Shown in pieces: positions 45,631 to 46,887 of a stretch of DNA of 64,000 nucleotides. The stretch's first letter is position 1. Every line of letters starts with the position of its first letter. Made by a program: the position numbers and the translations under genes. Origin of the DNA: Ignavibacteria bacterium (GTDB taxonomy: Bacteria; Bacteroidota; Ignavibacteria; Kapaibacteriales; Kapaibacteriaceae); the NCBI GenBank assembly GCA_016191145.1, contig JACPPD010000004.1, positions 62,001 to 126,000 of the forward strand. Direction: 5' to 3'. Below the pieces are notes generated by a model. It was not told the DNA's origin. It searched no databases and saw only the letters and a program-made list of their open reading frames with translations.

Positions 45631-46887
45631 TTACAAAGCAAGTGCAATCGCCACCAGTACAGTGACAACAATCTGCAAATAGATTGTGTTCACATTGGCC
45701 TTTACAAGTGTTCGCTCAAGGATATGTTTGCGCATATACGTCCATACCCATGTGCCATATACAACGCTTACAATTGCCGGTACCCAGAGTAAAGGTTTGT
45801 TGTAGGCTAACGCAAGCGATCCCGTAAATGCAGTTGCCGCAAGCCACACGGCACCCCAAATCCACACTGCACTCTTCTTACCAAAAGTTACTATCAGATG
45901 ATTCTTCCCTGTTGCTGCATCGCCTTCAACATCAGGAACCTGGTTGATCACCAGAATATTCGTGGTCAGCAATCCTGCGGGAATTCCGAACAGAAACGCT
46001 TCCCATGAATAGAGTCCTGTGATGACGTAATACATACCGAACGTAATCAATGGTCCGAATGCAATGCTGATGGCAAGCTCACCAAGCCCCCTTCGAGCAA
46101 CAAGCCGCACAGGCGGCGCCGTGTAAAAAAATCCGCATATCAAGCCAATGATTCCTATTATCAGGACCCCTTGTCCAACTACGATAGACAAATACACACC
46201 GATTGCAAATGCAAGAAGCATTAGGCTCACTGCAACGCTGCGTGTACCTTTTAAATCGATCAGCCGCATTTCTATTGCACGGCTGCCGCCCGAATACTGA
46301 ACGAAGTATTTAGTATTTGCCTGATCTGTGCCACTCATCACGTCGAAGTAATCGTTAAAGACATTACTCGCCAGATGCAGCATCATTACACCGAACATTG
46401 CGAGAAGGGCATTCACCCAATTGATAGCAGCGTGTGCAACGCCTGCAGAAAATGCAATTCCAATAAACACCGGAGTGATTGCTGCAGTGAGAAATGGTGC
46501 GCGAGTAATCACGAGCCAGCGAATCATTTTTGTCGACCCCTTTATGGCGATATCAACAGGGGCTGGCAATTCTTCAGTGATGCCGCAAAATCCAATTTGC
46601 TGTCCTGCTTTGAATGTTGGTGTTATGCGAATTCGTGCGCCAAACAGTTCGCCGTTCTTGCGAACAAAATTCGTCTCCGTAACATATTCACCTTCTTTAA
46701 CAGCGGTGCCCAGCCAGGTCGATAAATTTTGTAACACAATCTCGCCTGGGGAGAATACGCTCACGCGCAGCTTACCAACGGTTTCGCTGGGAGAGTACCC
46801 GAACATGACTTCGGCGCCGGCTGAATACGTTTCGATTATTCCTTCGAGGTCGCACGTAATAACAGATTTTTCAAGTGTGGTAGCCAT
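45631..46887 (-). CDS. PAS-UbiA fusion: sensor domain joined to a prenyltransferase
   Basis: 418 residues. Residues ~1-105 form a PAS domain (VITCDLEGIIETYSAGAEVM, GYSPSETVGKLRVSVF, NFVRKNGELFGARIRITP). Residues ~120-418 form a UbiA-type prenyltransferase with about nine transmembrane helices and both Asp-rich motifs (NVFNDYFDVMSGTD and NQVPDVEGDAATGK). The UbiA part is closest by eye to MenA, which prenylates 1,4-dihydroxy-2-naphthoate to make demethylmenaquinone. A soluble PAS domain at the N-terminus of such an enzyme is unusual and suggests redox, light or ligand control of quinone synthesis. The frame is continuous with no stop between the parts. Confidence 0.88.
   Translation of the reverse strand: MATTLEKSVITCDLEGIIETYSAGAEVMFGYSPSETVGKLRVSVFSPGEIVLQNLSTWLGTAVKEGEYVTETNFVRKNGELFGARIRITPTFKAGQQIGFCGITEELPAPVDIAIKGSTKMIRWLVITRAPFLTAAITPVFIGIAFSAGVAHAAINWVNALLAMFGVMMLHLASNVFNDYFDVMSGTDQANTKYFVQYSGGSRAIEMRLIDLKGTRSVAVSLMLLAFAIGVYLSIVVGQGVLIIGIIGLICGFFYTAPPVRLVARRGLGELAISIAFGPLITFGMYYVITGLYSWEAFLFGIPAGLLTTNILVINQVPDVEGDAATGKNHLIVTFGKKSAVWIWGAVWLAATAFTGSLALAYNKPLLWVPAIVSVVYGTWVWTYMRKHILERTLVKANVNTIYLQIVVTVLVAIALAL

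Follow-up and report, generated by a model that had tools for sequence, protein, structure and literature searches.

A conserved fusion of a PAS domain to a MenA-like UbiA prenyltransferase: a putative enzyme-level regulator of quinone supply

How microbes set the levels of their quinones has been described as poorly understood (PMC12421875). Control of quinone supply at the level of an enzyme is reported for the synthesis of DHNA, which is under feedback control at MenD (PMC12421875, PMC9835592), and PAS cysteines have been linked to quinones in two further proteins: ArcB has two that are oxidised by quinones, and the response of EvgS requires ubiquinone and involves two such cysteines (PMC8174306, a paper in which ubiA features as a deleted gene). 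Other PAS domains, such as those of Aer, NifL and MmoS, belong to FAD redox sensors, and a tryptophan on the F-alpha helix is given as the primary determinant of FAD binding by PAS domains (PMC10468136). In the gene described here, a sensor-type PAS domain and a MenA-like prenyltransferase form a single protein. As with MenD, control of quinone supply would be exerted at the level of an enzyme, but whereas that reported control acts on MenD/MenF (PMC12421875, PMC9835592), here it is putative and would come from a separate domain fused to the prenyltransferase. The original prediction, made from the DNA alone, knew of no well-described example of such an architecture, and the literature searched agrees: none of the publications returned by searches of an open-access library describes, by its title and abstract opening, a PAS domain fused to a UbiA enzyme, and the words UbiA and prenyltransferase are absent from the main text of a large PAS-domain survey (PMC10468136).

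The gene lies in a stretch of 64,000 nucleotides (hereafter, the window) from contig JACPPD010000004.1 of an Ignavibacteria bacterium (assembly GCA_016191145.1; Table 1). Its conserved neighbours encode an S1-domain protein, a Mur-ligase/FolC-like protein and a PurH-like AICARFT/IMPCHase. In 18 of 19 loci examined, the window gene included, the start codon falls no more than nine codons from a conserved ITCD motif, and GGAG stands upstream of the start in 11 of those 18, the window gene's own site being weaker. Pfam recognises PAS_9 at residues 8-100 (28.4 bits, cut-off 27) and UbiA at residues 139-386 (100.3 bits, cut-off 34.2), and the NCBIfam sensory_box model TIGR00229 is also passed (30.5 bits, cut-off 22.9). 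A full-length AlphaFold2 model computed from 30 aligned rows (mean pLDDT 87.7, pTM 0.81) shows a PAS fold, with strands at residues 7-13, 17-21, 68-75, 81-93 and 96-106, followed by a helical UbiA bundle. Conservation was read from alignment A3, which holds the window protein and 29 of the 38 fusion loci found in a genome collection; outside it are three cut loci (L034, L038, L055), one masked (L056), one with eight stops (L062), and L030, L032, L036 and L037.

Table 1. Coordinates of the fusion gene and its features within the window.
Feature	Position	Strand	Remarks
PAS-UbiA fusion gene	45631..46887	-	single ORF, 418 aa, ATG start, no stop within
PAS domain, residues 7-107	46567..46869	-	Pfam PAS_9; AF2 model; VIA-align Z 17.5 to 3lyx
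Linker, residues 108-120	46528..46566	-	least conserved part; mean identity 0.29 across groups
UbiA/MenA-like prenyltransferase domain, residues 121-418	45634..46527	-	Pfam, AF2, Foldseek, profile search
Cys12 codon, first PAS strand	46852..46854	-	C in 30/30 rows
Cys101 codon, last PAS strand	46585..46587	-	C in 30/30 rows
Trp58 codon, long helix, F-alpha position	46714..46716	-	W in 30/30 rows; aligns with Aer Trp (8dik)
First aspartate-rich motif NDYFDVMSGTD, N178-D188	46324..46356	-	N178, D179, D182, D188 invariant, 30 rows
Second aspartate-rich motif NQVPDVEGD, N315-D323	45919..45945	-	N315, D319, D323 invariant, 30 rows

The reading favoured here, at a probability of about 0.62, is that the protein is a MenA-type polyprenyltransferase acting one step before UbiE/MenG and regulated allosterically by its N-terminal PAS domain. 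The membrane-embedded enzyme would attach a polyprenyl tail to a respiratory quinone's aromatic headgroup, for subsequent methylation by UbiE/MenG, while the PAS domain, presumably cytosolic, would act on the prenyltransferase by allostery. That the PAS domain regulates the enzyme we infer from its exceptional conservation and its position directly before the first membrane helix. More weakly, we infer that its signal is redox, which would arrive through a flavin near Trp58 and/or the Cys12/Cys101 pair, possibly from the quinone pool as in ArcB.

Profile cut-offs and modelled fold together identify the N-terminal half as PAS. Modelled separately (pLDDT 85.0), it superposes on 3lyx with a Z of 17.5 (rmsd 1.8, 106 residues aligned), and 3lyx also heads the PAS structures returned by Foldseek for this half; the top row of the PAS profile search, 7rdr, a repeat protein matched in eight stretches below threshold, was set aside. 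The model fits the FAD redox sensors Aer (Z 15.4), NifL (15.3) and MmoS (14.7), and the fold alone is silent on the ligand because comparable scores are reached by LOV, BMAL1 and ARNT PAS domains. Individual residues are more telling. The invariant Trp58, on the long helix, coincides with the tryptophan of Aer in the profile alignment and thus supplies the principal FAD feature; unlike in the FAD sensors, the probable secondary positions (His and Asn in Aer) are, on a presumed assignment, Ser46 and Phe74 in 30 of 30 rows, and the domain is joined to a metabolic enzyme rather than to a signalling output. Cys12 and Cys101 are the fusion's sole invariant cysteines (every other cysteine column reaches at most 4 of 30 rows), and they occupy the first and last PAS strands, which we take to be neighbours in the fold. 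A LOV-type domain was rejected: the only conserved cysteines are these two, both on strands and so away from what we assume to be the place of the LOV flavin-adduct cysteine. A haem PAS of the FixL/DosP type was likewise rejected for the window protein, which lacks an F-alpha histidine and has Asn at position 54; no histidine column is invariant, position 54 being N in 17 of 30 rows and H in 11, and those 11 may bind haem. ArcB and EvgS, as far as they are described in PMC8174306, resemble the fusion in having two conserved cysteines in a PAS domain adjoining a membrane part. They differ in that the fusion's cysteines, on the first and last strands, probably lie elsewhere (those of EvgS are on the H and I strands), and in that the fusion's output is the quinone-synthesis enzyme itself, which would make the feedback direct. 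Our best guess from the sequence is a redox-sensing PAS domain, working via a flavin, a thiol switch or both, because Trp58 aligns with that of Aer and a PAS cysteine pair is also present in ArcB and EvgS.

The same residues bear on a rather unlikely alternative, in which the PAS domain serves structure or dimerisation, or docks UbiE or upstream enzymes, and senses nothing. PAS domains may indeed promote protein-protein interactions (PMC10468136), and no cofactor signature is matched in full; however, an invariant pair of strand cysteines and a helix tryptophan would be needless for a mere dimer interface, and docking sits poorly with the existence of sister enzymes that adjoin ubiE without any PAS domain. 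These sisters come from the Chloroflexi class of G063, which we take to be Anaerolineae because the Anaerolineales genome of locus L061 stands at its centre. The family profile matches 29 of 298 genomes of the class at E <=1e-60, three of them over the whole fusion and 26 over the enzyme part alone; a match counts as PAS-less if it starts at profile position 111 or later (seven proteins and 12 neighbourhoods were read). Directly downstream of the sister, on the same strand, ubiE is found in 7 of the 12 stretches, 23-377 bases past the end of the match (L116, L118, L119, L120, L125, L126 and L127), and in none of the other five. All three sister enzymes that were typed (L107, L116, L119) pass the menA model TIGR00751, with 139-152 bits against 102.

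Beside the fusions themselves, ubiE was found close by in one of 40 stretches (the 38 collection loci and two from the Chloroflexi class). In that stretch, L124, the stop codon of the fusion overlaps the start of ubiE by ATGA, and the encoded UbiE, though read without its first residues, still scores 172 bits on TIGR01934, above the cut-off of 158. Function is not evident from the fusion's gene neighbours in most groups, part of these neighbours having been chosen by a longest-ORF rule that is wrong in places (L118 and L124 were re-read). They include HSP70, a hotdog thioesterase and a CAAX-type protease in Flavobacteriales, and a sigma factor, MerR/TipAS and AAA proteins in Chloroflexi. The best matches of the Flavobacteriales thioesterase, which precedes the fusion, are EntH (115/237 bits) and DHNA-CoA hydrolases (92/185 and 88/226), all of them below cut-off and at most suggestive. 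Two further neighbours may be recorded: a protein whose V4R match falls just below cut-off follows the fusion in the gammaproteobacterial MAG (L058:11576-12313; 30.6 vs 31 bits), and one Chloroflexi fusion adjoins haem o synthase, another respiratory UbiA enzyme (L047:8971-9915; TIGR01473, 232 bits, cut-off 210).

The enzyme half belongs to the UbiA superfamily by its Pfam score, by its helical membrane bundle (AlphaFold2 and Foldseek) and by the two aspartate-rich motifs, which we take to be the defining feature of that superfamily. The original prediction had spoken of intact hallmark motifs. This holds for the UbiA aspartates, which are invariant in 30 rows, but does not extend to membership of MenA proper, the protein lying below all NCBIfam MenA cut-offs: its best MenA score is 134.1 bits against a cut-off of 264 and its TIGR00751 score 81.3 against 102.15, and the fusions L053 and L061 likewise fall short. 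MenA models are nevertheless its best NCBIfam matches; identity as a chlorophyll synthase, a 4-hydroxybenzoate enzyme or a haem o synthase was rejected on much weaker scores. UBIAD1 and archaeal UbiA structures come first in Foldseek, and UBIAD1, the animal menaquinone-4 synthase, is also the nearest solved relative by sequence (PDB 8djk, 4.4e-17, profile positions 129-418), closest in both respects but matched without the PAS domain. The fusion is thus like MenA (NF004751/TIGR00751) in its profile matches, in its aspartate motifs and, probably, in taking the place of plain MenA where that is gone, and unlike it in falling below the equivalog cut-offs, in its N-terminal PAS domain and in an acceptor-side loop (YF.QYSGGSR) that is not the one found in the family's plain MenA. 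Given this loop and the scores below cut-off, the aromatic substrate could differ. We would file the fusion as MenA-like by role rather than as a MenA equivalog, because no known headgroup route was found in the genomes of the family.

Evidence for the role comes from a natural deletion. In addition to the window's own genome, 59 relatives were scanned, 22 of the same, Kapabacteria-like family and 37 from the rest of the order. The window's genome encodes four UbiA proteins, among them a plain MenA (NF004751, 280 bits, cut-off 264; TIGR00751, 176, cut-off 102) beside UbiE/MenG. This adjacency is direct in 12 of the 12 family genomes that have plain MenA. Among the 23 family genomes (the 22 relatives and the window's), nine have both fusion and plain MenA, ten the fusion only and three plain MenA only, G021 being too fragmentary to score, which leaves 22. 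UbiE is over its cut-off in 21 of the 23, with G020 just short (156 vs 158 bits). Six fusion-only genomes (G003, G005, G014, G015, G018 and G022) keep UbiE in like flanks with no MenA: CrtD-like and DUF6438 genes in G014, G015, G018 and G022, these two plus pyrE- and xth-like genes in G003, and pyrE- and xth-like genes alone in G005. Among the other fusion-only genomes, G012 and G016 stop at contig borders, and G004 is described below. A tblastn search for MenA in the MenA-less loci gave weak matches, the best (E 1.7e-6) with the L072 query and inside ubiE, and our reading of the L072 matches is that they come from that ORF running on into ubiE. In the single-contig genome G004, UbiE is present with other neighbours, and four UbiA-family proteins are encoded: the fusion, classed here by its 66% identity to the window's fusion; a strong 160-bit Pfam match; a protein with 361 vs 351 bits on NF006088, whose next best matches are phosphoribosyltransferase models; and a 44-bit match without an NCBIfam match. 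The fusion is the sole MenA-type enzyme among the three of these that were looked at, the 160-bit protein being the fourth and outside that set.

The pattern of presence and absence alone is not statistically telling: given 12 genomes with MenA and 19 with the fusion, chance would leave about 1.4 of the 22 scored with neither, against 0 seen, and although at least three changes of plain MenA are needed on the UbiE tree, its well-supported branches force only one. The strength of the argument is the retained UbiE, because UbiE needs a prenylated substrate. Strong support for placing the fusion at the prenylation that precedes UbiE, as a putative substitute for plain MenA, comes from the loss of plain menA with UbiE and fusion kept, from the adjacency of sister enzymes to ubiE and from the ATGA overlap. 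The original prediction of a sensory domain on a quinone-biosynthesis enzyme is partly borne out, a sensory-type domain being conserved as a unit with a MenA-like enzyme which the genomes point to as acting before UbiE; its further proposals, that redox or ligand state sets the supply and that the quinone is menaquinone, are hypotheses. Since fusion and plain MenA coexist in 9 of 23 genomes, their roles there may not be identical. This coexistence, together with the low MenA scores and the distinct acceptor loop, favours an otherwise unlikely reading in which the fusion prenylates another acceptor for a second lipid, such as an accessory quinone or a vitamin-like compound, and not the main respiratory quinone. 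Plain MenA, however, is absent only from genomes that have the fusion, and these retain ubiE; the ATGA overlap ties the fusion to ubiE in one genome; and three Flavobacteriales-like genomes (G068-G070, all small and incomplete) show only the fusion and one other, untyped UbiA protein.

Two further observations concern plain MenA. A CrtD-like carotenoid desaturase homologue stands beside UbiE and MenA in 8 of the 12 family genomes with plain MenA (L083, L085, L082, L092, L095, L086, L084 and L087). In the fusion-less genome G008, a second plain MenA-like protein (L064:9330-10271) accompanies its MenA, with 202 bits against cut-offs of 264-277 and 119 vs 102 on TIGR00751.

Upstream of prenylation, the family is peculiar. 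NuoH of complex I is present in all 23 genomes (at about 400 bits), and 12 of them have plain MenA despite having no MenD, MenB or MqnC over cut-off. For menD, there is no match at E 0.001 in the 23 genomes; menB is over cut-off in none of them, with matches far below, as expected of related hydratases, and neither is mqnC, with one marginal match (17.9 bits, G018). The menD search works in the same order, where 12 of 37 non-family genomes are over cut-off; the remaining 25 of these order mates (G023-G059) are without a MenD over cut-off. The mqnC search has no positive control, being over cut-off in 0 of the 37 order mates, with weak matches in eight (up to 48.5 bits). PF02621 gives weak matches of 22-36 bits in 15 of the 23 family genomes, the one in G000 lying between a SpoU methylase and a transaldolase. 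The family has either strongly diverged headgroup enzymes or an undescribed route; Nitrospira is reported to have posed a similar puzzle before the discovery of its methyl-plastoquinones (PMC12324825).

The two halves of the protein vary together, and the PAS domain has changed the less. Mean identity within the 10 Kapabacteria-like rows is 0.77 for PAS vs 0.67 for UbiA, and between these and the other 20 rows 0.62 vs 0.44. In six close pairs, dN/dS of the PAS half is 0.02-0.13, below that of the enzyme in four of the six, dS being saturated (2.4) in one pair. Pairwise distances of the two halves correlate at r = 0.88, a value reached in 0 of 2000 permutations. PAS and UbiA are one protein under strong purifying selection; this covariation and conservation are no proof of regulation. 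On the UbiA tree, a single branch (66/99 support; one change in 200 of 200 bootstrap trees) separates all fusions from both the family's plain MenA and the PAS-less homologues of the Chloroflexi class, in a topology whose deep order is unsure: long branches meet, as the program warned, and one outgroup branch is very long. In this tree row L106 retained about 40 PAS residues and three rows are identical. The simplest reading is a single fusion event, followed by spread of the fused gene. PAS domains are promiscuous, and this promiscuity might suggest that the enzyme is a common MenA whose PAS domain is neutral or in decay; we consider that very improbable, as the identity comparison contradicts it, the PAS half being more conserved than the enzyme and hence not mere decoration, and the PAS_9 match being kept in 30 of 30 rows.

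Within the family, the scan of relatives found the fusion in 18 of 22 genomes (three of these copies, in G010, G012 and G016, cut by contig ends) and did not find it in G008, G011 or G019; G021 has only a C-terminal scrap. In the same scan it occurred in 0 of the 37 genomes of the order outside the family. Scanning the genome collection with two short peptide patterns, by which divergent members are undercounted, gave 38 fusion loci in five groups: 18 Kapabacteria/Ignavibacteria-like, 12 Chloroflexi, 6 marine Flavobacteriales-like, 1 Gemmatimonadetes and 1 gammaproteobacterial, the last two being one MAG each, with binning errors possible. Grouping followed taxon labels, except that L025, L028, L029, L037, L039, L041 and L060, whose labels are vague or misleading, were placed by identity. 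The fusions of L037 (labelled Melioribacter roseus) and L039 (Bradyrhizobiaceae) are 62-66% identical to the window's and group with the Kapabacteria-like ones; these MAG labels look wrong. In the plasmid collection, 35 records matched, all at <60% identity and none spanning 80% of the query. All 25 rows of alignment A2 are collinear from PAS through the last helices, and in A3 both UbiA and PAS_9 are recognised at E 0.001 in each of the 30 rows. The claim that both halves share one unbroken frame is confirmed by the ORF, by Pfam and by the 18 same-family genomes. An artefact (sequencing error or indel, misassembly, wrong frame), for which there is nothing beyond one broken copy among the 38 loci, is ruled out because the same frame recurs in those 18 of 22 relatives and in the single-contig chromosomes of G004 and CP075367.1 (locus L061). 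The broken copy is a Flavobacteriales-like fusion (L062:10001-11344) with eight stops in the match frame, and is either a broken gene or an assembly error.

What is new here is a conserved, probably regulatory architecture on a known enzyme superfamily. Because the sensor-type domain is better conserved than the enzyme that it precedes, the fusion suggests that quinone supply is tuned on the enzyme itself. Taken further, the PAS domain might read the redox state of the quinone pool, through a flavin and/or a Cys12-Cys101 switch, and throttle the prenyltransferase that feeds it, within an undescribed pathway lacking MenD and MqnC. As a whole this is speculative and unlikely, but if true it would mean feedback on the supply of respiratory quinone contained within one protein. 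The fusion also draws attention to a bacterial family in which complex I, UbiE and MenA-type enzymes occur without any recognised pathway to the headgroup, as was once the case for Nitrospira, and a prenyltransferase with a built-in sensor-type domain would offer a direct and testable answer, in one protein transferable to E. coli, to how quinone levels are controlled.
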